From: Ruminiclostridium sp.
GTDB lineage: Bacteria; Bacillota; Clostridia; Oscillospirales; Ruminococcaceae
Assembly (NCBI GenBank): GCA_017395555.1
Contig: JAFPUE010000110.1
Span: 1 to 38,227 of the forward strand
DNA: 38,227 bases
Direction of reading: 5' to 3'
Shown in pieces: positions 3,016 to 18,424 of this stretch (the stretch's first letter is position 1; each line of letters opens with the position of its first letter). The notes beneath the pieces are model-generated. The model did no database searches. It saw nothing but the letters and a program-made list of their open reading frames with translations, and had not been told where the DNA came from. Position numbers and translations under genes: made by a program.

Positions 3016-4128
3016 CTACCTCTTACAATCAGCTTCTATCCAGTCCATAATCACATCTGCGATGTATTCCTGTTCCGCTGCAGTTAAGACCTTGCCGGAG
3101 GGTATATGATGCCATTTCTCAAGACATCCCCGACAGCAGCAGGCAGTTGCGTGCTGTGCAATAAAGACCGGATGGCCTTTCATCGGTGTTTGCTTCCCGT
3201 CGTTTTCGGGATTTTCGGCAGATAACCGCTTCTCTACGAAATCCTTCGCGTGGCTTCGGATAGTCTCGATCCCTTTCTCCGCGACATAATTCTTATCCTT
3301 TGCCGAAAGGTGAAAGCGGCTCCTGAACTCGGATCTGTTCAGCCCCGAAAACAGCTCACCGCGCTCCGGCAGCTTGTACACTATACCGTCGGCGCTGCCC
3401 GTGCCGGGAATGTAGCTGTAGCCGGACTTTTTCGCCTGCGGCATCTGCATTTTGCGCTCGATGTGATATGTTTTTCCATCCTTTATGAATACCGCGCCGG
3501 TCTGCTTGAAATAAAACGGTACTGCGTGACGGACACACTGTCTGCGCACTTCCTGTATCCACCTGAAATCACACGGCCGCGCGTTGTTTCCGGACTCGCC
3601 GCCGCAGACTACATGCTCGATACGCCCTGTCGCAAGATACTTTTCCATGTCTATCTCGCCGAGCATAGGCTCGCAGATGATCTCACGGTGCTTTATCGGC
3701 AGGTTCAGAAATATCGGCAGCCTGTGATCCGCTCTGTCCTGATTTTCGCAGGTAGAGCATATCGTCACATTCTCCCAGCCGTCACCCCAGTCGGGCGGAG
3801 CGCATTGTTCAAAGCGGTCTATTCTTTTGGTGATGATGTGGAAATGCAAGTCGCTGCGTTCCCGTATCATATCCCAGCAGCCCTGCCGCCATTCATCCGC
3901 ATCTTCAAGAAAGAAATCCGAGGTCATGCAGGTATATATCACGCCGTTATCGGCAGTCAGCTTATATTGTCCCTGCCTGTCCTTTTTAAGCGGGAGGGCG
4001 TAATCGCCGGTCTTTGTCACGACGGAAGCGTCTTTTCCTATGCTCTCGTCGCGCCTGTAAACATAGCAGTTCGCGCACCCGGGACTCAGCTTGTGGCAGC
4101 CGTGCCACGGGTTCCATATATCGTTCAT
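3016..4128 (-). CDS. DUF5131 (phage Gp37/Gp68-like) fused to DUF4186
   Basis: A 370-residue protein with two conserved domains. Residues 1 to about 255 match the DUF5131/phage Gp37-Gp68 family, whose hallmark is an N-terminal three-cysteine motif, here Cys11, Cys18 and Cys21 in WHGCHKLSPGCANCY. Members are widely suspected to bind an iron-sulfur cluster, but no reaction is known. Residues about 257-370 match DUF4186 (EFRSRFHL, TPMKGHPVFIAQHATACCC, RGCLEKWHHIP), which also holds a cysteine/histidine cluster. The two are usually separate proteins in my recollection. The start at 4128 is chosen because GAGGTGAAA precedes it and the protein then begins MNDIWNPWHGC; an in-frame upstream start at 4221 would lie beyond the promoter. 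It is first in a four-gene operon. Confidence 0.82.
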   Translation of the reverse strand: MNDIWNPWHGCHKLSPGCANCYVYRRDESIGKDASVVTKTGDYALPLKKDRQGQYKLTADNGVIYTCMTSDFFLEDADEWRQGCWDMIRERSDLHFHIITKRIDRFEQCAPPDWGDGWENVTICSTCENQDRADHRLPIFLNLPIKHREIICEPMLGEIDMEKYLATGRIEHVVCGGESGNNARPCDFRWIQEVRRQCVRHAVPFYFKQTGAVFIKDGKTYHIERKMQMPQAKKSGYSYIPGTGSADGIVYKLPERGELFSGLNRSEFRSRFHLSAKDKNYVAEKGIETIRSHAKDFVEKRLSAENPENDGKQTPMKGHPVFIAQHATACCCRGCLEKWHHIPSGKVLTAAEQEYIADVIMDWIEADCKR

Positions 4129-4158
4129 ACTTTCACCTCGTTTCACGGTGATATCCAC

Positions 4159-4187
4159 ATTATACCATATCTCACCTGCATTATCAA
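4159..4187 (-). promoter_or_regulatory. Promoter of the DUF5131 operon
   Basis: On the minus strand, TTGATA (4182-4187) and TATAAT (4159-4164) are separated by exactly 17 bases. Transcription should start near 4152, giving a leader of about 25 bases and ruling out the longer upstream start of the downstream gene. Confidence 0.75.
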
Positions 4188-4209
4188 CAGTTTGATCGCA
4201 TTTTCTGTA

Positions 4210-4238
4210 TTGACACCCCATTCTTTCTGTGGTAAAAT
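4210..4238 (+). promoter_or_regulatory. Promoter of the PPC-domain gene
   Basis: TTGACA (4210-4215) and TAAAAT (4233-4238) with a 17-base spacer, about 32 bases before the start codon. It is back to back with the leftward promoter at 4159-4187. Confidence 0.75.
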
Positions 4239-7450: not shown

Positions 7451-7495
7451 GAAAAGCCTGTTATAATGCGGCTTTGCGCTTAAAACAGGCTTTCT
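7451..7495 (-). terminator. Terminator of tRNA-His
   Basis: Read on the minus strand, AAAGCCTGTT (7484-7493) pairs with AACAGGCTTT (7453-7462) and is followed by TCTT. It lies 8 bases past the tRNA CCA end. Confidence 0.7.
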
Positions 7496-7500
7496 TTGTG

Positions 7501-7579
7501 TGGGGTGGGAAGTGGGATTCGAACCCACGATCTTCAGTGCCACAAACTGACGCGTTAGACCAGCTACGCTATACCCACC
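7501..7579 (-). tRNA. tRNA-His (anticodon GTG), CCA encoded
   Basis: A full cloverleaf is visible: T-arm GTGGG-TTCGAAT-CCCAC, anticodon loop TTGTGGC on a TCAGT/ACTGA stem, D-arm GCGT...ACGC, and an encoded 3' CCA. The extra 5' G facing C73 is the histidine identity element. The acceptor stem has one U-U mismatch (positions 6 and 67), where I recall related tRNA-His genes having a pair. It has its own promoter and terminator and is transcribed as a single gene. Confidence 0.95.
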
Positions 7580-7601
7580 ATATTAGCTTCACTGATAAAA
7601 T

Positions 7602-7630
7602 ATTATATCACAAAATTCGCGATTTGTCAA
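7602..7630 (-). promoter_or_regulatory. Promoter of tRNA-His
   Basis: Perfect consensus on the minus strand: TTGACA (7625-7630), 17-base spacer, TATAAT (7602-7607). The -10 box ends 22 bases before the mature tRNA 5' end. Confidence 0.85.
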
Positions 7631-7682
7631 TACTTTTTTTATCTTTTTTCGCTGATGTCTTATATAATCCGAAAAAACGGCG

Positions 7683-8483
7683 TTATTGCGCCTCATTAAA
7701 GAAATCCATGATCCTCTGCTTGTAATCCGAAGCCTCATCGTAGACCGCGTGACCGTACTCGTCGTACATATAGAGCCTGCACCCGAGCTTCTCGGCAATA
7801 TCAACGGAAGCCGTGCCGCCGAGCACTATGTCGTCATTGGTGCCGATAACGAAAATGGGGCAGGTGATCTTATCGAGCTCGTCGTAAACATCGAATCCCC
7901 GGCAAGCCTCCGACATAATGCGGAACCGAACGATCTCGGCAGGAGTCGCGAGTTTTCCGTATTCAATGAGCAGCGTGCGGTATTTTGCAAGGAAGCTCTG
8001 CGAATACACACTGTCGGCAAACTCGGCGCAAAGCGTGTCAAGATCATTGTTCCGCGCAAGCTCAGACCATTGCTCTATTCTTGCTTTTACCTCATCGGTA
8101 AGTCTTGCGGCGGTGGAGCCGAGCACTGCCTTTCGTACAAGCTCCGGGTAGCGCGCGGCGATGAACTGCACGATCATACCGCCCTGTGAGGTGCCGAAAA
8201 AGTACGCGTCCGCGATACCGGCAGACTTTATTGCAGCGGCAATATCCTCCGCCATATCCTCAACGGTATAGCCCTCCGGCATATCAACGCGTCTGTCGAA
8301 CACCCACACGGTGTAATCCTCCGCAAACATCGAATACGCCGATGCGATACTGTCTGCGGAATCGAGGATATTGCGCAGATTGATACCGGGTATGATGATG
8401 AAATGCTTCTTTCCCGTGCCGAATTTTGCATATTCAGTCATGACATTATTTACATTTACCGAGCCTTTTTCAGTTTTTATCAT
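7683..8483 (-). CDS. Alpha/beta hydrolase
   Basis: A 266-residue cytoplasmic serine hydrolase. The nucleophile elbow is GTSQGG with Ser99. The oxyanion region is IIPGINLRN, the acid is in GTNDD (Asp217 or 218), and the catalytic His is His245 in DEYGHAVYDE. Length and layout fit the esterase/peroxidase-like abhydrolase group; the substrate is unknown. It lies 76 bases downstream of the HemC-like gene on the same strand with no terminator between, so the two may share a transcript. The CDS ends about 50 bases before the tRNA-His promoter. Confidence 0.88.
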   Translation of the reverse strand: MIKTEKGSVNVNNVMTEYAKFGTGKKHFIIIPGINLRNILDSADSIASAYSMFAEDYTVWVFDRRVDMPEGYTVEDMAEDIAAAIKSAGIADAYFFGTSQGGMIVQFIAARYPELVRKAVLGSTAARLTDEVKARIEQWSELARNNDLDTLCAEFADSVYSQSFLAKYRTLLIEYGKLATPAEIVRFRIMSEACRGFDVYDELDKITCPIFVIGTNDDIVLGGTASVDIAEKLGCRLYMYDEYGHAVYDEASDYKQRIMDFFNEAQ

Positions 8484-8559
8484 AATTGATTACCATTATT
8501 CGTAATAAGATATTTGTTTCGAGATGGATAGTACGCCGACGGTGTATATTGTGAATTTA

Positions 8560-9417
8560 TCAAGCCATTGCCGCAAGCTGCTCCGCAAGAGAGAAGCGCA
8601 GAGTTACCGGAGCACTGTCTGTGATGATCTTGTTCTGATCTTTTGTGACTGTAAGCGTTATGATACCGTTGGAGATATAGGCGTAGGCACCCGCAGCCCC
8701 CATTTCGTCGGAATACAGCAGCTCTGCCGCTCTGCGCTCCGTCTCGAAGCATCTGTAAGTGTCCTCGTCGTTTATTGCGCCGAGAATATGAGGGAATTCC
8801 CCCTCGCGTGACTGCACGGCGATAATGCCCTGACAGGCGGACGGCACAATCGTTTGCCAGCTTATTGTGGCAAAGTCGAATCTCGCGTCAACCACAACTC
8901 CGGAGCGTCTGACGCCGTCCTCGCTTAAAATGATAGCGTCGTAATCTCCGTCGTACAGCTGGCGCAGTCTTACATCGACATTTCCCTCGATAGCTGCGAC
9001 TGTAATGCCGGGGTTCAGCTTTTTCATTCCGGCTGTGCGCCGCAGGCTGTTTGTACCGATCTTCGGGTTTTCCGGTATAGCCGCGCCGCGCTTCGTTACG
9101 AGCACATCTCTCGGTGAACCGCGTTCGAGCACCGTTGTCACGCAGGTGCCGGCAGTAAGGGTAAGCGGCAGGTGCTTTGCGCTTTGCACGGCAATATCTA
9201 TCTCGCCTTTCAGCAGTGCCTGCTCCATAAGATCGGTGTAGATATTACCGCCTTGTATTCTCTCTGCGGGACGTTCGATGAACTCCGCTTCACGGGTCCC
9301 GTCGATGTGCATTATCTCTGTCTCGATATCGGGGAATTGCTTTACGATGCCGAGTGCTACGGATTTAGCGGCTCTGATCGCAATTCTGCTTCCGAAGGTG
9401 CCTATTCTGATCTTCAT
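8560..9417 (-). CDS. Degenerate hydroxymethylbilane synthase (HemC) homologue
   Basis: A 285-residue protein with the full porphobilinogen-deaminase scaffold: IRIGTFGS, ERGSPRDVLV, IGTNSLRR (Arg126, Arg127), EGNVDVRL, GDYDAIIL, PSACQGIIAVQSR and MGAAGAYA. True HemC joins four porphobilinogens on a dipyrromethane cofactor. Here key residues are replaced, by my alignment to remembered E. coli HemC: the cofactor Cys242 is Glu238 (GGCxxPxGAYA becomes SDEMGAAGAYA), catalytic Asp84 is His82 (SxKDLP becomes SAKHLP), substrate Arg11 is Phe8, and Arg149 is Glu144. Arg155 and Arg176 are kept as Arg150 and Arg171. So the normal reaction is very unlikely; a binding, sensing or new catalytic role is more plausible. 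The frame is intact with good composition, so it is not a decaying pseudogene. It is divergent from tspO. Confidence 0.82.
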   Translation of the reverse strand: MKIRIGTFGSRIAIRAAKSVALGIVKQFPDIETEIMHIDGTREAEFIERPAERIQGGNIYTDLMEQALLKGEIDIAVQSAKHLPLTLTAGTCVTTVLERGSPRDVLVTKRGAAIPENPKIGTNSLRRTAGMKKLNPGITVAAIEGNVDVRLRQLYDGDYDAIILSEDGVRRSGVVVDARFDFATISWQTIVPSACQGIIAVQSREGEFPHILGAINDEDTYRCFETERRAAELLYSDEMGAAGAYAYISNGIITLTVTKDQNKIITDSAPVTLRFSLAEQLAAMA

Positions 9418-9467
9418 TCCGGTTGCCTTTCTTTAGAAAACGTATTGGCTTTTTCCTTCCGACTTTT

Positions 9468-9517
9468 TTCGTCAGGACATACTGTCATATTATAATTTGT
9501 CGCGAATACACTGTAAT
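9468..9517. promoter_or_regulatory. Overlapping divergent promoters, hemC-like / tspO
   Basis: The -10 boxes of both directions overlap: TATAAT on plus at 9491-9496 and TATAAT on minus at 9489-9494. Weak -35 boxes sit at 17-base spacing on each side (TTCGTC at 9468-9473 for plus; ATTACA at 9512-9517 for minus). Polymerase cannot occupy both at once, so expression of the two genes should be linked. Confidence 0.5.
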
Positions 9518-9535
9518 AGTCAGGGGGGATCAATT

Positions 9536-10012
9536 GTGAACAAAAAAATAAACATACCCGATCTGCTGATATTCATACTTTCGGCCGAGCTTGCCGGTGC
9601 GCTGTCCGGCATTGTTGCAGGCGGAAACTTCGGCGCGTTTTACGATACTCTTGTGAAGCCGCCGCTCGCGCCGCCCGGCTGGCTTTTCCCGGTGGTATGG
9701 GGAATACTGTACGCGGTAATGGGTATCTCGGCGTACATAATAAGCACGAGTGATGATATCGGCAAAAGCTCCGCGCTGACACTTTATGTGGTGCAGCTTT
9801 TCGCGAATGTGCTGTGGAGCCCGGTATTCTTCGGGCTGAAATCATTCGGCGGAGCGGTAGCGGTGATAGCTGTTATGCTTGTGCTTGTGATCTGCATGAT
9901 CGTGCTGTTCGGCAGGATAAACCGCTGTGCCGCGATTATGAACATACCGTATCTTATATGGACGATGTTTGCCGCGTATCTGACAGTCGGCTTCTGCCTG
10001 CTCAACGGATAA
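9536..10012 (+). CDS. tspO: TspO/MBR family protein (tryptophan-rich sensory protein)
   Basis: A 158-residue, five-helix membrane protein of the TspO/peripheral benzodiazepine receptor family, which binds and, in some bacteria, helps degrade porphyrins. Signature segments are YDTLVKPPLAPPGWLFPVVW, LYAVMGISAY, LFANVLWSPVFF and PYLIWTMFAAYL. The start is the GTG at 9536, with GGGGGGA 6 bases before it; this gives VNKKINIPDLL and normal family length, whereas an upstream in-frame start at 9497 lies too close to the promoter. It is divergent from the HemC-like gene, 118 bases apart, an association that fits a tetrapyrrole-related role. Confidence 0.92.
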   Translation: MNKKINIPDLLIFILSAELAGALSGIVAGGNFGAFYDTLVKPPLAPPGWLFPVVWGILYAVMGISAYIISTSDDIGKSSALTLYVVQLFANVLWSPVFFGLKSFGGAVAVIAVMLVLVICMIVLFGRINRCAAIMNIPYLIWTMFAAYLTVGFCLLNG

Positions 10013-10020
10013 CTTTTCTT

Positions 10021-10053
10021 ATGCCTCTGCTTTCCGGCAGAGGCATTCTTTTT
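10021..10053 (+). terminator. Terminator of tspO
   Basis: A perfect 9-bp stem ATGCCTCTG (10021-10029) / CAGAGGCAT (10038-10046) followed by TCTTTTT. It lies against the end of the convergent EAL gene. Confidence 0.85.
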
Positions 10054-11986
10054 ATGTGTTCAGCTCTCCCGACTGTATCTTCTCCCGAAGCGTCTCAACA
10101 GGCACCGGTTTACTGAAATAGAAGCCCTGTACCCGGTCGCAGCCGATAGAGCGCAGAAACTCGAACTGCTCCGCTGTCTCAACGCCCTCGGTCAGCGATA
10201 CCATATTGAGCTGCTTTGTAAGATCGACGATATTTTCGAGGATCGGCTTTGACTTGTTGTTATCGGTGAAGCCGGTCAGGAATTTCATATCAATTTTCAG
10301 AACATCGAACTGGTAGTCTTTAAGCACGTTGAGGGAGGAGTAGCCGCTGCCGAAATCGTCGAGCCATACGCGGAAGCCATTTCCGCGCAGCTCTTTTATC
10401 GCGTCGGACAGATATCCCTGCTGCTCGTTCAGTGCGCTTTCGGTTATCTCAATATCTATCATCTTTTTGTCTATGCCGTATTTATTGACGGTATCGCAAA
10501 GATAGCCGACGATATCGCAGAGCTCGAAATCGAGCCGCGAGAAATTCAGCGAAACGGGAACAGCCTTTCCGCCGCCGTCGATCATGCTTTTACATTCTTT
10601 GCAAACCTGCTCGGTAATATACTTGTCGAGCTTGTAGATCTGGCGGTATTCTTCAAGTATCGTGATAAACACGGCAGGGGAGATCATTCCGTGCTCCGGG
10701 TCTATCCACCGCGCGAGAGCCTCCAGCCCCGTGACGGTCTTGCTGTCGGAGGAGATTATCGGCTGATAGTACGCCTTTATGTAGCCCTTTTCGAGAGCGG
10801 TGTCTATATTGTTTACGATATACTGTTTGAGCTTGTATTTGTCGTCGAGGGTCTTGTCGTACATACGGAAGGTATGGTTCGGGTGCTTTTTTATGCTGTT
10901 GCAGGCAAACCTCGCTCTGTCACAGGCGAGGCTCGGATCGTTCTCGTCCTTGTCGGGGCGGTAGCCGCCGCACTTTATCCGCAGGTCAACATCGTGCTGC
11001 CTGCCGCGCACGATCTCGGAAAGGCTGTCGATGCGTTCCTTGAAGCCGTCAGAGCGGGTGAGCACAACGAAGTGATCGTCCGACAATCGTGACACGAGAG
11101 AGTCCCCGAAGGTATCGTTCAGTGTTGCCGCAAAATCTTTCAGAAAGCGGCTGCCTTCCGCAAATCCGTATTTGTCGTTGTACGATCTGAAATTCTCGAT
11201 ATCGAAGAACAGGAAGATTATATTTTCCTTGTCAGTCGTGACATAGCGCATCATCTTTCCGGCTTCCTCACGGAAATAGACCATATTGTGTATGCCGGTC
11301 ATCTCGTCATGTACGGAAACGTCACTGAGGTGCGAATTGAGCTGTTCGAGGTGCTCGTCCTTGAGCGCCTGTGCCATTGTGCGGTTGTAGCTGCTGAGGC
11401 TGCACATAACGGTGGCGAGCCACATTATCATAAGGTTTATCTTTGTTGCCGATGTTGTGCCTACCATTCCGGTGTTGAACGCGGGGATAACATCAAGGCA
11501 GCAGTAGAATACCCCGTATGAGAGCGATATTATGATAATCCCGATGTACGGGTACCATGTGAGCAGGCAGGCTGCGAAAAGCTCCATAGTCAGGAAGGTG
11601 AGTATCTGCTCGCCGATCATATAGTCCGAGACAGATATCTGCACACCGAAGAAGACGCAGATAAACATAAAGCTCCATGTCAGCAGATGCCCCACCCAGC
11701 GGACGTGTTTCTTACCGCGGACAAAGCGCACGGCAAAAAACAGCATGACCAGAGCTATCGAAAGCAGCAGACAGTAGTTGAAATAGTGAGAGATGTAGTA
11801 TTCCGTTGTTCTCGGGTCAATGCCGCTGAACTGACGTATAAGAAGCCGGAAGATCATCCAGAGCTCGATAGTGATAATGACAACGGACATATATATGCTC
11901 GCGCGCATATTTGCCGCGTAGAAAAAGTCGCGGACGTATCTGCTTTTTTTCTGTAATCCGAGCTTTTCAAGTATAAATTGTTTCAT
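10052..11986 (-). CDS. Membrane GGDEF-EAL protein, likely c-di-GMP phosphodiesterase
   Basis: A 644-residue signalling protein. About six hydrophobic helices span residues 25-205. A GGDEF-like domain (about 225-375) has the core LSDDHF in place of GGDEF, so cyclase activity is unlikely. The EAL domain (about 390-640) is intact: EALARW, LNFSR, EITES, LDDFGSGYSSL, LKIDMKF, TEGVETAEQ and VQGFYFSKP supply the metal and substrate residues for hydrolysis of cyclic di-GMP. The degenerate GGDEF may act as a GTP-sensing regulatory domain, as known in other hybrid proteins. The start at 11986 is chosen because GGAG lies 8 bases before it; an ATG three codons upstream overlaps that site. Confidence 0.9.
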   Translation of the reverse strand: MKQFILEKLGLQKKSRYVRDFFYAANMRASIYMSVVIITIELWMIFRLLIRQFSGIDPRTTEYYISHYFNYCLLLSIALVMLFFAVRFVRGKKHVRWVGHLLTWSFMFICVFFGVQISVSDYMIGEQILTFLTMELFAACLLTWYPYIGIIIISLSYGVFYCCLDVIPAFNTGMVGTTSATKINLMIMWLATVMCSLSSYNRTMAQALKDEHLEQLNSHLSDVSVHDEMTGIHNMVYFREEAGKMMRYVTTDKENIIFLFFDIENFRSYNDKYGFAEGSRFLKDFAATLNDTFGDSLVSRLSDDHFVVLTRSDGFKERIDSLSEIVRGRQHDVDLRIKCGGYRPDKDENDPSLACDRARFACNSIKKHPNHTFRMYDKTLDDKYKLKQYIVNNIDTALEKGYIKAYYQPIISSDSKTVTGLEALARWIDPEHGMISPAVFITILEEYRQIYKLDKYITEQVCKECKSMIDGGGKAVPVSLNFSRLDFELCDIVGYLCDTVNKYGIDKKMIDIEITESALNEQQGYLSDAIKELRGNGFRVWLDDFGSGYSSLNVLKDYQFDVLKIDMKFLTGFTDNNKSKPILENIVDLTKQLNMVSLTEGVETAEQFEFLRSIGCDRVQGFYFSKPVPVETLREKIQSGELNT

Positions 11987-12025
11987 ACACATCACTCCGT
12001 TAATACAATAGAGCTTTATGTAAAA

Positions 12026-12054
12026 ATTTTACCATAAGCAACAAAAAAAGTCAA
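12026..12054 (-). promoter_or_regulatory. Promoter of the GGDEF-EAL gene
   Basis: Minus-strand TTGACT (12049-12054), 17 bases, TAAAAT (12026-12031), about 40 bases before the start codon. Confidence 0.75.
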
Positions 12055-12074
12055 GTGATTTTGTTTAAATTGCC

Positions 12075-12115
12075 GCGTGGGACAAGTCTGTCAAAAAAGT
12101 CATTTTTTGACAGAC
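12075..12115 (-). repeat. Palindromic intergenic repeat, copy A
   Basis: A perfect 13-bp stem GTCTGTCAAAAAA (12086-12098) / TTTTTTGACAGAC (12103-12115) with a 4-base loop, followed on the minus strand by TTGTCC and CGCGG. It shares this sequence with copies B (14453) and C (38162). It lies downstream of the SGNH gene stop, after a GC-rich hairpin around 12119-12141. Confidence 0.85.
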
Positions 12116-12151
12116 AGAGAGCGGACAATTTTGCCCGCCCTGTTGTTTTTA

Positions 12152-13153
12152 TTACTTGTTCTTGCTTTTCTTTACTGCGACAACGATCACGATTATGATT
12201 ACCGCGGTCATAAGAACGCCTGCCGCCGCGCAGATAAGAATGAGGTTGCGCACGGCATCCTCGTCCGTGACCTCGACGGTCTTTTTGTAGGTGTATGTAA
12301 ATTTGCGAACCGCGTCATCAACCTTGTCCGCTATGATCTCGTGACCGGCGGCATTCGGGTGAATGTCAAAGTCGGATATTTTGGTGAGATCGCCGCAGCG
12401 CCCGTCGAAGGCTCCCGCTACATCTACCGTGGTGTAAAGCAGCTCGTCGCCGTCAACCGCGCACGCCGCTACTATATCGTTGAACCGGTCTATCTTCTCG
12501 TCGGAAAGATCGGAAAGAACCTTTATCTTGCGGAAATATTCGAGCGGATCGTAAAGCGTTTGCACGAATATCCTGCCGCCGGTCTTTGCACGAAGCTGCA
12601 GCGCGATATCCTTCAGGTTGTTTCTGAAGCCTTCGAGCGCGTAGTCTATATCGCTCTCAAAGCCGATAACATCAAGCGCTGCGGAAATGAGATCGACATC
12701 GGAAAAGTCAAGCTCCCCCGATTCCATATTATACCCGATCTTGGTCAGCAGTTTGAACAGTATAGCCAGCAGATCGTTTCCGCCGATAGATACAACCACC
12801 GCATCACATTCCGCGAGTACATCGTCGAGCTCGCCGCTTTTAAGGCTTTTCAGCAGATCTGCCGATGTTGCACCCGAGACAGCCTTGTTCACCATTTTGT
12901 GCGGGCAGTCCTCCGGAAGCTCTCCGCCGTACTTCTCCGCGAGAATATTCGCATACGAGCTGCAGTTGTACAGATCGTCGTCGGCATATCCGTCAAGCCC
13001 GAATCCCGCGGCGATAGAATCCCCGAGAAAGACAATGTCCGGCGGTACCGCAACTTCCTCATCAACATCAACCATTTTGGTTAGCCCCGCGCAGGAGCCG
13101 CATGTCAACAGCATAAGTACGACAAGCAGCAGGGAATTGATCTTTTTCAGCAT
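12152..13153 (-). CDS. Exported SGNH/GDSL hydrolase with C-terminal membrane anchor
   Basis: A 333-residue secreted esterase-like protein. Residues 1-21 are a signal peptide (LLLVVLMLLTCGSC); the cysteine could be lipidated but the lipobox is poor. The SGNH blocks are present: GDSIAAG with nucleophile Ser46-47 region, SIGGND, and DIHPNAAGH supplying the Asp-His pair. A C-terminal hydrophobic helix (about 305-327) followed by KKSKNK looks like a membrane anchor, so the catalytic domain should face outside. Such enzymes remove acyl groups from wall polymers or glycans. It is 15 bases downstream of azlD, with ribosome site AGGAGG, hence probably in the azlCD operon. Followed by repeat copy A. 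Confidence 0.88.
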   Translation of the reverse strand: MLKKINSLLLVVLMLLTCGSCAGLTKMVDVDEEVAVPPDIVFLGDSIAAGFGLDGYADDDLYNCSSYANILAEKYGGELPEDCPHKMVNKAVSGATSADLLKSLKSGELDDVLAECDAVVVSIGGNDLLAILFKLLTKIGYNMESGELDFSDVDLISAALDVIGFESDIDYALEGFRNNLKDIALQLRAKTGGRIFVQTLYDPLEYFRKIKVLSDLSDEKIDRFNDIVAACAVDGDELLYTTVDVAGAFDGRCGDLTKISDFDIHPNAAGHEIIADKVDDAVRKFTYTYKKTVEVTDEDAVRNLILICAAAGVLMTAVIIIVIVVAVKKSKNK

Positions 13154-13168
13154 AAGTGGTTCCTCCTG

Positions 13169-13477
13169 TCAAAAGAGTGTGATTACAAATCCGGCAAGGT
13201 ATGCGGTGCCGGCTGCGGCGAGCGCAACAACTATCAGCGGCATACCGATATAAGCGAGAATAAGGGCTGCGGCAGTCCCGACAGCGGAAGAAACGGCGCT
13301 TCCCGTGCTGTAAAAGATCGCCGGAAACGTCATTGCGCTGAGCACCGTGTACGGGATATAGTACAGAAAGCTGTTGAGAAAGCGCGAGCGTATCTTCTTT
13401 CGTACCAGCGTCAGCGGTATCATTCGTATCAGGTAAGTCACCGCCGCCATGACTGCGATGTAAATAATGATGCTCAT
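13169..13477 (-). CDS. azlD: AzlD, branched-chain amino acid export subunit
   Basis: A 102-residue membrane protein with four hydrophobic helices and the AzlD family pattern (IIIYIAVMAAVTYLIRMIPL, RKKIRSRFLNSFLYYIP). AzlD works with AzlC in the membrane to export branched-chain amino acids and analogues. It overlaps the end of azlC by 4 bases (ATGA), indicating coupled translation. Length is normal for the family. Confidence 0.93.
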   Translation of the reverse strand: MSIIIYIAVMAAVTYLIRMIPLTLVRKKIRSRFLNSFLYYIPYTVLSAMTFPAIFYSTGSAVSSAVGTAAALILAYIGMPLIVVALAAAGTAYLAGFVITLF

Positions 13478-14193
13478 GCGCTCTCACCGTCCTCTACGTT
13501 GGCGGGATCATTCTTCGGGAAGAGCACAGCGCACAGTGCTGCGGCTATCACTGCGCAGATTATGACCGCAAATCCGGACGAAATGAATGGTGCGAGGTAG
13601 TATAAAGCGGCACTCGCGGCTGCTGCGATAAGAACGCCCACAAGTATGCCTTTGTTTATCTTTGCTGGCGGTATGATTATAGCAATGAACATACCGTACA
13701 GCATTATCCCGAGTGCATCGGAGACCTCTGCGGGAAGTATTGTCCCGGCTGCTGCGCCGAGAATGGTTCCGAGCACCCAGCCTAAGGTGGATATCAGTAT
13801 TATGCCGTACATATACCACGGTGTTATCCTGCCGGGCTGCACGGACGCCATAGCGAAGATCTCATCGGTTATGCCGTATGAGACGATCAGGCGGCGGGGG
13901 AGGGTAAAGCTCTTGTCGAGCTTCTGCGAAAGCGAGAGCGACATTAGCGAGTAGCGCAGGTTTATGATGATCTGCGCGAGTATCATTTCCGTTATAGAAC
14001 CGCCCGCGGCGATTATGCCGACACCGGCTGCCTGTCCGGCGGATGTGAGGTTGAAAAGCGAGATCGCCGCCGCTTCCGTTACGGAAAGCCCGTTTTTTAC
14101 AGCGAGAATGCCGAATCCGAACGATACGGAAAGGTAGCCGAGAAATATCGGTATCCCGTGTTTCAGCCCTTTTAAAAACTTAGAAAGTTTCAA
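13474..14193 (-). CDS. azlC: AzlC, branched-chain amino acid export permease
   Basis: A 239-residue membrane permease, large subunit of the AzlCD exporter. Family features are GYLSVSFGFGILA, NLTSAGQAAG, IINLRYSLMSLSLSQKL and SYGITDEIFA. The start is a TTG at 14193: GGAG lies 6 bases before it and the protein then opens MKLSKFLKGLKHGIPIF. A TTG four codons upstream (14205) overlaps that ribosome site and is less likely. The last residues (FPKNDPANVEDGESA) are cytoplasmic. First gene of azlC-azlD-SGNH. Confidence 0.92.
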   Translation of the reverse strand: MKLSKFLKGLKHGIPIFLGYLSVSFGFGILAVKNGLSVTEAAAISLFNLTSAGQAAGVGIIAAGGSITEMILAQIIINLRYSLMSLSLSQKLDKSFTLPRRLIVSYGITDEIFAMASVQPGRITPWYMYGIILISTLGWVLGTILGAAAGTILPAEVSDALGIMLYGMFIAIIIPPAKINKGILVGVLIAAAASAALYYLAPFISSGFAVIICAVIAAALCAVLFPKNDPANVEDGESA

Positions 14194-14221
14194 TTCCAGC
14201 TCCAAAATCTTATTTTAGCCT

Positions 14222-14260
14222 ATTATATCACATTTTCCCGAAAAAAACAACCGTTTCGGG
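14222..14260 (-). promoter_or_regulatory. azlC promoter inside an inverted repeat
   Basis: Minus-strand TATAAT at 14222-14227 with a weak TTGTTT -35 at 14245-14250 (17-base spacing). The -35 box lies in the loop of an inverted repeat CCCGAAA (14237-14243) / TTTCGGG (14254-14260), a reasonable operator for a local repressor; no regulator gene is adjacent. Confidence 0.5.
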
Positions 14261-14325: not shown

Positions 14326-14372
14326 CCGATGTCTTCCGACATCGGCCAGCTTGTCAAAAATTATTTGCAGAC
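14326..14372 (+). repeat. Hairpin and degenerate relative of the palindromic repeat
   Basis: An 8-bp stem with TTCC loop, CCGATGTCTTCCGACATCGG (14326-14345), followed by a run ending near CTTGTCAAAAATTATTTG. The hairpin equals the terminator hairpin at 14486-14505 read on the opposite strand, except for one compensated pair. It looks like a decayed copy of the repeat unit lying head to head with copy B. Confidence 0.45.
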
Positions 14373-14409
14373 TAACAAATCTCCGTGTTACGGGATTAAG
14401 TTTAGGGAT

Positions 14410-14482
14410 CCAACCCCATTTTAAAGGGGTTGGCGCTGTCCGCGCAGGACAAGTCTTTCAAAAAAGTTCCTTTTTGAAAGAC
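14410..14482 (-). repeat. Palindromic intergenic repeat, copy B
   Basis: A 12-bp stem GTCTTTCAAAAA (14453-14464) / TTTTTGAAAGAC (14471-14482). Compared with copies A and C one stem pair is changed on both arms (GTCTGTC/GACAGAC to GTCTTTC/GAAAGAC), a compensatory change. On the minus strand it runs on into TTGTCCTGCGCGGACAGCGCC and a CCAACCCC/GGGGTTGG hairpin (14410-14433). It lies directly after the chemoreceptor terminator. Confidence 0.85.
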
Positions 14483-14508
14483 AAGCCGCTGTCGGAAGAC
14501 AGCGGCTT
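14483..14508 (-). terminator. Terminator hairpin of the chemoreceptor gene
   Basis: A perfect 11-bp stem AAGCCGCTGTC / GACAGCGGCTT with a 4-base loop, 13 bases past the stop codon. The T-run after it is weak; the adjoining repeat with T6 may complete termination. Confidence 0.7.
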
Positions 14509-14521
14509 GTTATCGTAATTG

Positions 14522-16474
14522 TTATCTTCCGAGCTTGAATCTTGCAACCTGATCCTTGAGGAGCTTGGACTGTCCGGAGAGCTCTTCGCAGGAGGCAGCC
14601 GTCTGTTCCGCGGTAGCGGAGTTCATCTGGATAACCTGCGAGATCTGCTCTACGCCGGAAGTGATCTGACGTATGGACTCGGTCTCTTCCGCACTTGCCG
14701 ACGCGATCTCTGTGATAAGGTCTGCGGTCTGCGCGGACATCTGCTTTACTTCCACCATGGATTCCTTTGTGGCAAGAGCGATCTTGCTGCCCTTGTTTAC
14801 TGCCTCGATAGAAGCGGTGATAAGTGCGGTAGTCGAGTTTGCTGCTTCCGCGGATTTGCTTGCGAGGTTACGAACTTCGTCAGCAACGACTGCGAAGCCC
14901 TTACCGGCCTCACCTGCACGCGCTGCCTCAACAGCAGCGTTGAGCGCGAGAATATTGGTCTGGAACGCGATATCTTCGATAGCCTTGATGATCTTTTCGA
15001 TCTCCTTGGATGTGCCGCTGATCTCGTCCATTGCCTGAACCATGTTCTTGATTTCGGTATCCTGCTCGTTTACTCTGTCCTGAGTCTGCTTGGAGAGATC
15101 GCCTGCCTTTGCGGCATTCTCCGCAGTATTCGCGATCTGAGTGGAAACCTCGGCGATAGTAGCGGAGATCTGCTCGATAGCGGAAGCCTGCTTTGTTGTA
15201 CCGTCTGCGAGAGCCTGCGAGCCTTCTGCCATCTGGTTCGAGCCGGAGAGTACCTCGGAGCTGCTCGTATCTACGCCGGACATGATGTCATTGAGTGAGG
15301 AGAGTATGTTATTGATAGAATTCTCTATCTGTATAAAGTCGCCGGGATATCTTACACCGGTCTGAACCGTGAGGTCACCCTGTGAGATAGACGTGAGCAC
15401 GTTGTTCAGGTCATTGATGATAGCGCTCATGTTGGTTATCAGCGCCTCTGCAGCCTCGGACATCGTTTCGATCTCGTCGTTGGTCTTGTAGATCTTTGCG
15501 GGAGTCATAACGTCGCCGTCAGCCATTTCCTGCATACGCTTTGCAGTCTCGGCGATAGGACCTGCGATGTTCTTGATACGAATACTCGTGATGATTATAG
15601 AGAGGATAGTTGCGAGTATAGCCACAACAACTATCATAAGAGCTGCGGTAAAGATGTTTGTCACAACGGGGCCCTTCGGTGTAGCCGTAACTACATACCA
15701 GCCTTCAATGCTGTCTATCTGCGAATAACCAGCGATATAGTCTGTGTTTGCAAGGTTGAATTCGAGAACGCCCGACTTGTTCTTGAGCATTATGTTAGCC
15801 GCGTCGGTAATGGACTTGCCGAGAGTATGTTCGCCGAGTACCTCTGTGAGCTGCGGAACGAGGGATGTGCTTGTTCCTACGATCATACCGGTCTTATCCA
15901 TGATGAACGCGATACCGTTCTCCCCGAAATGAACTTCCTTGATTAACTTCGAGAAGGAATCTGCGTCAAGTCCGCCGTAAACGACGTAGTTCTGACCGTT
16001 TGCGGAGAAATACTTACCCATCATGATCGTTATGGAGTTATCGGTCTTACGGATAACGGGGCTCGATACATAAGCGCCTTTTGTTGCCAAAGCCTGCTTG
16101 AAATATTCGCGTTCGGAGATATCGGTGTCGTTATAGGTCTTACCTGTGGAATACGCGATTGCGAAATCCTTGAAGGTACTTGTGGTAGCGGCATCTTTAA
16201 GCATAGCCTTTCTGTCATCGAGCGGTATGTTCTCGTCAACTATGCTTTCGTTCTTGTCAACAACGTCGAACTGCTGCGATAGAGAATCGATAGTGTGCTC
16301 GATCGAAGAAGCGTAAGCTTCCGAGAGGGCTAGACCTTCATCCTCATACTGGCTCATGTAGCGTGAATAGCTTGTAACTATGTAAATAACTACAAGAATG
16401 AGACACGCTGACAGTACGGGTACTGTCGAGATAAGTATAAGTCTTGATTTAAGTGTTCTTCTTTTTTTATTCAT
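14522..16474 (-). CDS. Methyl-accepting chemotaxis protein, dCache type
   Basis: A 650-residue transmembrane chemoreceptor. Order: helix TM1 (about 12-34), extracellular dCache sensor (about 40-270, with [17 protein letters not shown] and the membrane-proximal [17 protein letters not shown]), TM2 (about 275-297), HAMP (about 298-350), then the coiled-coil signalling domain to residue 650. The hairpin tip that contacts CheA/CheW is unmistakable ([32 protein letters not shown]). No chemotaxis or flagellar genes are nearby, so it is an orphan receptor for a system elsewhere. Ribosome site AAAGGAGG. The ligand is unknown; dCache domains often bind amino acids or small organic acids. Confidence 0.96.
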
Positions 16475-16786: not shown

Positions 16787-16830
16787 TATATAAAAGTATC
16801 ATGATCCGGCAGGCGTATGGAGGTAACGGT

Positions 16831-17997
16831 ATGGAATATCGCATAGACAACAATCTTATCACGGTTTTACCGGAAGGGCGTATAAGCTCCGACAATGCGC
16901 TGCAATTCGAGCGCGAGGTGACAGAGCTCTGCGATACCGGCAGCTATGACGGTATTGTCATAGACGCGGAAAAGCTCGTGTATATATCGAGCGCGGGATT
17001 GCGTGTGATAATGAAGCTGATGAAGCGGTACAAGAACATATCCGTTATCAATACCTCTCCCGAGGTGTATGACGTGTTCAGCGTGACCGGCTATGCCGAG
17101 CTGATAAAAGTTGAAAAAGCGTATAAGAAGATATCCGTCGATGGCTGCGATATTATAGGCATCGGCGCATACGGCACGGTTTACCGTGTTTCCGACGAAA
17201 CGATAGTCAAGGTACTTCGCAGCAACGACGCTCTTCCGATGATAAAGCGCGAGCGCGAGCTTGCGAAGAGGGCGTTCGTTCTCGGTATCCCCACCGCGAT
17301 ATCCTACGACATAGTCAAAGTGGGAGATCTTTACGGCGCGGTGTTCGAGCTGATAAACGCGAAAAGCGCGGCACAGACCGTTGCCGACGAGCCCGGACGA
17401 CTAGGTGAGATCATTGAAAAGTCTGTGGAGATTATGAAGCAGCTCGCTTCGACGGAAGTAAAAAAGGACGAGCTCCCGCAGCAGAGGGACATATTTATCG
17501 GTCATGTGAAAAAAATAGCAGGGGAGCTGCCGGAAGCCGTTTCGGAGAAGCTGATCTCGCTGCTGTCCGCAATGCCCGACACATACACGATGGTACACGG
17601 TGACTGCCACTTCAAGAATTTAATGGTGCAGGGCAGCGAGCTGATAATCATAGATATGGACACACTCTCCGCGGGTGACCCGATATTCGAGCTTGCCGGG
17701 ATATACTCCCCATATCAGGCTTTTCCGGAGATATCCGGGAACGAGGACACCATAAGGTTTATGGGACTTCCGTACGATACCGTCTGCGAGATATGGAACA
17801 CCACGCTTAAGCTGTACCTCGGCGACGAATATGAAGAGCTGCGGGAAAGCACTCTTATGAAAGCAAAGCTGCTTGCGGCGATTCTGGTGGTAACCGCGCT
17901 CGATCTGATGAACCGCGAAAACGATGAACTTCGCGTCCTGAACCTCAGGCACATCTGCGAGATCACCCCCTTACTCGACACGCTTACGCTGAAGTAA
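16831..17997 (+). CDS. STAS domain fused to aminoglycoside-phosphotransferase-like kinase
   Basis: A 388-residue two-domain protein. Residues 1 to about 100 are a STAS (anti-sigma-factor antagonist) domain with LVYISSAGLRVIM; the SSAG serine is the position phosphorylated in SpoIIAA and RsbV. Residues about 110-388 are a kinase-like fold of the APH/choline kinase class: IGIGAYGTVYRV glycine loop, IVKVL lysine, the catalytic VHGDCHFKNLM and the metal-binding IDMDT. The start at 16831 is chosen because GGAGG precedes it by 6 bases; an ATG at 16801 gives ten extra residues. A plausible reading is a self-contained partner switch where a PP2C phosphatase, encoded next, dephosphorylates the STAS serine. 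Whether the attached kinase domain phosphorylates it is inference. Confidence 0.88.
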   Translation: MEYRIDNNLITVLPEGRISSDNALQFEREVTELCDTGSYDGIVIDAEKLVYISSAGLRVIMKLMKRYKNISVINTSPEVYDVFSVTGYAELIKVEKAYKKISVDGCDIIGIGAYGTVYRVSDETIVKVLRSNDALPMIKRERELAKRAFVLGIPTAISYDIVKVGDLYGAVFELINAKSAAQTVADEPGRLGEIIEKSVEIMKQLASTEVKKDELPQQRDIFIGHVKKIAGELPEAVSEKLISLLSAMPDTYTMVHGDCHFKNLMVQGSELIIIDMDTLSAGDPIFELAGIYSPYQAFPEISGNEDTIRFMGLPYDTVCEIWNTTLKLYLGDEYEELRESTLMKAKLLAAILVVTALDLMNRENDELRVLNLRHICEITPLLDTLTLK

Positions 17998-18051
17998 TGA
18001 ATAATGAATAATTGTGGTTGCGGCTGCGCCGCATATTTGGATCGTGACGAG
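17995..18051 (+). repeat. 57-bp intergenic repeat, left copy
   Basis: The copy begins exactly on the TAA stop codon of the STAS-kinase gene and matches the right copy (18337-18393, inverted) at 51 of 57 positions. It contains a GC-rich core with GCGGCTGCGCCGC. Confidence 0.9.
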
Positions 18052-18094
18052 ATAAGATAGTTTTTTTCGCTTATGAAGGATTGGATTTTATTAC

Positions 18095-18260: not shown

Positions 18261-18336
18261 ATAAATTGGTATATAGTGCGATACGCCAATGTGTGAAACA
18301 GATCATATTCATCAAAGGACAGGAAAAGCTTCGGGT

Positions 18337-18393
18337 CCCGTCACGATTCAGATATGCGGCGAAGCCGCAACCGCAATTATTCACTATTCATTA
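18337..18393 (-). repeat. 57-bp intergenic repeat, right copy
   Basis: An inverted copy of 17995-18051 with six mismatches. Its core GCGGC-GAA-GCCGC (from 18356) is a tight hairpin lying about 50 bases before the ribosome site of the phosphatase gene. Confidence 0.9.
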
Positions 18394-18424
18394 TAATTTA
18401 TTCATTTCTCTCAGGGGTGTCTGC

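Follow-up and report, generated by a model that had tools for sequence, protein, structure and literature searches.

The window, by which we mean the whole stretch of 38,227 nucleotides that was analysed, is contig 104 of a draft Ruminiclostridium genome (2.61 Mb, 137 contigs, 86.7% complete). It contains a paralogue of hemC, here called hemC*, whose product lacks the cofactor cysteine and the catalytic aspartate of hydroxymethylbilane synthase (HMBS, porphobilinogen deaminase), with tspO as its divergent neighbour and a gene for an alpha/beta hydrolase downstream (Table 1). The hemC* frame starts with ATG, has no internal stops and codes for 285 amino acids, about the length of the canonical HemC of the same genome (284 amino acids), to which the protein is 51% identical. 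An earlier note on this DNA had described the HemC scaffold as complete. The profile searches gave 150.9 bits against PF01379 (domains 1 and 2 of porphobilinogen deaminase, residues 3-206) and 166.4 bits against the TIGR00212 hemC model; the Pfam search gave no match to PF03900, the C-terminal HemC domain. Since the TIGR00212 cut-off is 164, pipelines that rely on this model would call HemC* a working enzyme.

Table 1. Features of the hemC* locus in the window and HemC-like loci without the cofactor Cys in other genera of the family.
Feature	Position	Strand	Basis
hemC*, paralogue of hemC; product lacks the cofactor Cys and the catalytic Asp	8560..9417	-	PF01379, TIGR00212, alignment, dN/dS, clade
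tspO, divergent neighbour of hemC*	9536..10012	+	PF03073, 147.8 bits; same place in G002 and G047
Intergenic region hemC*-tspO, 118 bp	9418..9535	.	Overlapping divergent promoter-like hexamers
Alpha/beta hydrolase gene, downstream of hemC*	7683..8483	-	PF00561, 56.8 bits; orthologues in G002 and G047
tRNA-His, end of conserved block (flank, outside the proposed unit)	7501..7578	-	Matched in both relatives
GDSL lipase, AzlD and AzlC genes	12152..14205	-	Collinear in G002 and G047
Cys-less HemC-like gene, L117	4996-5916	+	
Cys-less HemC-like gene, L118	3017-3985	+	
Cys-less HemC-like gene, L119	3330-4202	+	
Cys-less HemC-like gene, L121	4855-5868	-	

HemC* is homologous to HMBS (B. megaterium 5ov5, E. 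coli 1pda) over residues 3-258. Residues were compared in a 40-row alignment in which three HemC* proteins were set against 37 canonical HemCs of the genus and the family, and human and E. coli residue numbers were mapped by alignment onto the numbering of the window protein. The canonical rows were chosen among 54 rows read, 14 of which were left out of the alignment (four other Cys-less proteins and ten partial, near-duplicate or, in some cases, distant sequences), so that 37/37 refers to canonical enzymes and not to all homologues. The earlier note had claimed that the cofactor Cys, the catalytic Asp and two arginines were changed, and the larger alignment bears this out. Position 238 (E. 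coli Cys242) is Cys in 37/37 canonical enzymes and Glu, Asp and Asp in the three HemC* proteins, while position 82 (Asp84) is Asp in 37/37 and His in 3/3 HemC*. Positions 8 (Arg11) and 144 (Arg149) are Arg in all 37 and Phe and Glu, respectively, in the window protein, both arginines being lost in 3/3 HemC*. Overall, 32 positions are invariant in the canonical set; 16 of them are retained in all three HemC* and nine are altered in all three (R8, the loop aspartate D44, G58, D82, R144, T149, A165, C238 and P241).

The claim that the SLRR motif and two other substrate arginines were kept also stood, as R126 and R127 (the SLRR pair), R150 and R171 are retained in 3/3 HemC*, together with K81, T122 and S124; the window protein further retains S10. 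We take K81, S124, R126, R127, R150 and R171, like the lost R8 and R144, to be residues that hold the pyrrole chain, in part after PMC10577081. A shifted alignment that conceals a Cys or Asp was ruled out by the 54-row and 40-row alignments. The window protein has three cysteines (92, 195 and 223), each at a non-cofactor column and each at a place where the canonical HemC of the same genome also has Cys, and the alignment shows no substitute for the cofactor cysteine elsewhere in the protein. Both the catalytic aspartate and the residue that anchors the dipyrromethane cofactor are missing from HemC*.

Published mutants give these changes a functional meaning. In the available text of PMC8561815, B. 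megaterium HMBS is inactive as Asp82Ala and Asp82Asn and active as Asp82Glu, and His82 of HemC* aligns with this mutated position (Asn in 5ov6, Glu in 5ov5). For human HMBS, the accessible part of PMC10577081 describes Cys261 and Asp99 as intolerant to change and lists, alongside Asp99, Lys98, Thr145, Ser147, Arg149, Arg150, Arg173 and Arg195, which in our mapping are K81, T122, S124, R126, R127, R150 and R171 of the window protein. The same part reports that human Arg167, the equivalent of R144, is tolerant to change in a yeast assay, and loss of R144 by itself would therefore prove little. With both the Cys anchor and the catalytic Asp gone, it is highly improbable that HemC* acts as a hydroxymethylbilane synthase, a judgement that takes the residues from alignment and the inactivity from the published mutants. 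Retention of the pocket was considered as proof of ligand binding and rejected, because the residues of the cofactor pocket are no better retained than other conserved residues (6/9 vs 21/40, Fisher p = 0.49).

Orthologues of HemC* were found in 3/71 genomes of the genus (G000, G002 and G047), with 70-72% identity. Any HemC match was present in 11/71 genomes; all three HemC* genomes also carry a canonical HemC, and eight genomes have canonical HemC without HemC*. A tree of 52 HemC rows united the three HemC* in one clade (support 100/100), whose neighbour is the group formed by the genus's 11 canonical HemCs (97/82); the two groups together are supported at 100/100. HemC* arose from hemC by duplication and, from its position in the tree, this duplication may date from far back in the genus, or from shortly before its origin, and have been followed by losses, or else fast change may have come after it. 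A scan of a genome contig collection, covering close relatives only, returned two records, DEWH01000027 and CACZGM010000040, which are G002 and G047. Mobile origin was rejected, since all matches in the plasmid (76 records) and phage (10 records) collections were below 60% identity, and a pattern scan of viral contigs gave zero confirmed relatives.

Pairwise dN/dS (NG86) among the three HemC* genes was 0.115, 0.133 and 0.055, at a dS of 1.6-4.0 that is near or past saturation, and canonical HemC gave 0.08-0.28 in the 15 pairs computed. Codon differences fall on 147-163 third positions of 284 and on 36-49 second positions. HemC* is under strong purifying selection as a protein, and the selection that the earlier note had read from the intact frame is supported by the substitution pattern.

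HemC* is not the only HemC-like protein of the family without the cofactor cysteine. In the 54 rows read, Cys is missing in the three HemC* and in four others, and one more row stops before this column. The four (from G420, G218, G382 and G200) share with HemC* the PF01379 match and the missing Cys, but they are far more diverged, their SLRR arginine pair is no longer intact and they form a clade separate from HemC* on the HemC tree. Their genes precede cobT-cobU-cobS in G420 and G382 and cobU-cobS in G200, whereas in G218 no cob genes were in view. G200, which is listed as 100% complete, gave no match for hemB and none for a further HemC. A TspO profile search of the stretches around the four genes found none, with both controls found. 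The idea that Cys-less HemCs would form one clade co-occurring with tspO across Clostridia is therefore supported for the three HemC* as a clade and not for the four others, which are separate and had no tspO in the stretches searched. With two separate Cys-less clades and different neighbours, the active centre of HemC seems, from these sequences, to have been lost at least twice in this family.

Wider searches returned no further HemC* among the loci covered. In the family sample, where about half of the HemCs were read for residues and the rest were judged by score, 81/396 genomes had a HemC match and the window copy alone scored like HemC* (586 bits), the next scores being 340 bits for the canonical copy of the same genome and then 231.5 bits. 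In the order sample HemC was present in 55/394 genomes, with two matches solely in the source genome; at the bottom of the score range were the window copy and one partial at a contig end. The best 28 loci of the order and class searches, a set biased towards top scorers, all have the Cys, the Asp and both Arg; two of these rows are one gene, and two come from the family itself, one of them already read. Another 12 loci, mostly second copies or low scorers, comprise nine with all four residues, one partial that ends before the Cys and two long frames of 753 and 949 amino acids in which a weak HemC domain is fused with one of the tetrapyrrole methylase type. The long frames (L167 1803-4061(+) and L168 1515-4361(+), in the class-level genomes G1160 and G834) include HemD in one case, and their weak HemC domains did not align at the HemC motifs.

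Whether the source genome also has a canonical hemC had been left as a question by the earlier note, and such a gene, with the key residues present, was found on contig 117. There it is accompanied by hemA, by a gene resembling those of precorrin-2 dehydrogenases and by a methylase gene that the contig end truncates, so hemC* is located outside the canonical hemC operon. The operon is more fully seen in G002, where genes for a solute-binding protein and an ABC ATPase, hemA, hemC, a methylase-HemD fusion and hemB are followed by a class-III aminotransferase gene in the place of hemL and by genes for a protein with a sulfite/nitrite reductase domain and one with a PAPS-reductase domain, a content that points to a siroheme route adjoining sulfate assimilation. 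Both hemB and canonical hemC are present in 3/3 HemC* genomes. The canonical HemC of G047 (L018) is identical or nearly so to that of G000 (L016) in its middle part and differs in its first part and C-terminal end, which looks, at the sequence level, like recombination or a chimeric draft.

The window TspO is the sole TspO match in the source genome and an ordinary member of the TspO/MBR family, both by its PF03073 match and when aligned with chains of known structure (R. sphaeroides 4uc1 and 8e7x), with PPGW and PYLIW stretches; what sets its gene apart is that it stands divergent to a HemC paralogue. GTG 9536 suits as the tspO start better than 9497 does; a purine-rich, ribosome-site-like stretch lies ahead of the GTG. 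The earlier note had proposed overlapping divergent promoters towards tspO. The divergent arrangement holds in 3/3 HemC* genomes; the promoters are consensus matches only, with overlapping hexamers at 9469-9496(+) and 9517-9489(-) in an intergenic sequence that is partially conserved in the two relatives. Promoter-like consensus matches in 7500-10100 number 10 vs 3.1 in shuffles. Among RNA elements at the gathering threshold, the tRNA-His alone was found. The hydrolase gene follows hemC* on the same strand in 3/3, as the earlier note had described for the window, and its product has GTSQGG and His245 invariant in the three orthologues and a dN/dS of 0.10-0.14 (NG86).

The first 20 kb of the window were compared with G002 and G047. 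Among the matches listed, 7488-14250, which spans tRNA-His, the hydrolase gene, hemC*, tspO and the genes for the GDSL lipase, AzlD and AzlC, is collinear on one contig in each relative; the last three genes are probably functionally unrelated to hemC*. A GGDEF/EAL gene, at 10052-11995(-) between tspO and the GDSL lipase gene, is absent there in both relatives. Also among the matches listed, G047 has 14.5-20 kb in collinear order on a different contig and in G002 mainly the receptor gene is matched, elsewhere, while positions 1-7.4 kb have few matches, on other contigs. The hemC*-tspO pair thus persists between changed flanks, as do the unrelated genes of the block, and because the block includes azlCD and the GDSL lipase gene, the shared neighbourhood can be plain inheritance.

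The flanks have further features. Part of a chemotaxis receptor gene (dCache-HAMP-MCP, 14531-15256) has, among the matches listed, many matches of 68-84% DNA identity in both relatives and belongs to a multi-copy receptor family. Dispersed short repeats at 14360-14484, 17990-18064 and 18330-18409 likewise have many listed matches in both, the latter two in both orientations. One protein joins STAS and APH-type phosphotransferase domains (16801-17994(+)), and another joins DUF5131 and DUF4186, both of unknown function (3019-4218(-)).

In genomes without HemC* the hydrolase gene lies within a cluster of Trp-repressor-like, methyltransferase, Hsp33, hydrolase, QueA and Tgt genes. It is beside Hsp33 in G030, G055, G057, G059 and G060 and beside QueA in G032 and G029; longest-ORF gene calls hid genes in some neighbourhoods, for example the hydrolases of G029 and G059, which were placed otherwise. 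The tspO gene adjoins this Hsp33/QueA cluster, or is one gene off, in G029, G030, G057 and G060. At the Hsp33 loci of the three HemC* genomes (L129-L131), Hsp33 directly adjoins QueA, with no hydrolase gene between the two. Hydrolase and tspO are thus non-adjacent in those relatives without HemC*, yet both flank hemC*. In trees the HemC*-linked hydrolases form one group (100/99), which adjoins Hsp33-linked relatives, and the HemC*-linked TspOs form another (82/89); with both groups next to other copies, the move may have gone either way.

Across the genus tspO occurs in 23/71 genomes, 20 of them without HemC*. Its association with HemC of any kind was not significant (6/11 genomes with HemC vs 17/60 without, Fisher p = 0.16). 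Since hemB is missing in 4/8 of the tspO genomes tested for it, TspO in this genus seems independent of own tetrapyrrole synthesis. With one origin, a collinear block and a tspO that is common without HemC*, the evidence for a link between HemC* and TspO is no more than moderate.

The reading that we tentatively favour, at a little short of even chances, is that HemC* is a non-catalytic pyrrole- or tetrapyrrole-binding pseudoenzyme linked with TspO. Since its cleft retains the Lys, Arg, Ser and Thr groups for a pyrrole chain, its most likely ligand, held reversibly, would be porphobilinogen, a linear tetrapyrrole or a uroporphyrin-type macrocycle. Encoded divergently to tspO in hosts whose hemC and hemB belong to a siroheme-type operon, HemC* would most likely buffer, report or deliver stray pathway intermediates jointly with TspO, which is the weakest step. 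Both the binding and the joint action draw on the fold and on a study of B. cereus under anoxic conditions. There, in the available text of PMC13185565, cells that had lost tspO contained more porphyrin, mainly coproporphyrin, and more of two enzymes of the siroheme branch; as B. cereus makes heme, the parallel is loose. Support for the HemC*-TspO reading is confined to three genomes with one origin. A more specific and improbable form of it would make HemC* a dedicated soluble tetrapyrrole receptor working with TspO, with His82 as metal ligand. In the enzyme, the Asp at position 82 faces the pyrrole nitrogens. The fixed His82 could serve as ligand to the metal in siroheme or a different metallo-tetrapyrrole, with Lys and Arg holding the carboxylates of the tetrapyrrole, and the loaded or empty state of HemC* would set how TspO passes or retains porphyrins.

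HemC* could instead be a selected pseudoenzyme that is next to tspO by inherited chance, with a role unrelated to TspO, for instance one confined to the siroheme pathway or one outside tetrapyrrole metabolism altogether. The block collinear in both relatives (7488-14250, among the matches listed) takes in unrelated genes, hemC*, tspO and the hydrolase of the three genomes each cluster into a single group, which a common origin would produce, and 20 genus genomes have tspO without HemC*. Against this stand the flanking of hemC* by two genes that lie apart in the relatives read without it, the persistence of the pair despite altered sequence on either side of the block and a dS close to saturation, and the fact that hemC* and tspO are both tetrapyrrole-related by family. 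We regard chance adjacency as rather unlikely, and as less so than the remaining alternatives. Pseudoenzymes often regulate active paralogues, and HemC* is found only in genomes with canonical HemC (3/3), as would suit a regulatory partner that adjusts flux by binding to canonical HemC or to some other early enzyme (glutamyl-tRNA reductase, for example); but eight genus genomes have canonical HemC without HemC* and HMBS is described as monomeric in the accessible part of PMC7242693, which leaves such a partner improbable.

An enzyme of new activity that uses His82 and the retained Arg/Lys cleft would fit the fixation of His82 and of an acidic residue in the former Cys column (E, D, D) in 3/3, as well as the strong purifying selection. 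The neighbouring genes point to no substrate, however, and a HemC-fold enzyme of this kind was not found in the open literature searched, so that we hold a new activity to be quite improbable. Decay or misassembly might be suspected from the missing catalytic residues and from a draft of 137 contigs. A pseudogene or assembly error is ruled out as far as selection and occurrence in three genomes can do so, and is of negligible probability: the frames are open in all three at 70-72% identity, a dN/dS of 0.055-0.133 is not that of a decaying gene and speaks strongly against it, and two of the orthologues come from the separate public records named above.

The pseudoenzyme linked with TspO thus remains our preferred reading of HemC*. 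Neither a HemC pseudoenzyme nor a pairing of hemC with tspO was found described in the open-access literature searched, which included few subscription papers. The acceptance of HemC* by TIGR00212 means that annotation-based hemC counts can be wrong. The function of TspO in bacteria is a long-standing question, and a soluble HemC pseudoenzyme encoded next to tspO would make up, with TspO, a pair of proteins whose ligand binding could be assayed directly, in hosts whose tetrapyrrole genes found here are those of a siroheme-type operon. If the receptor reading is true, a biosynthetic enzyme would have turned into a sensor of its own pathway.
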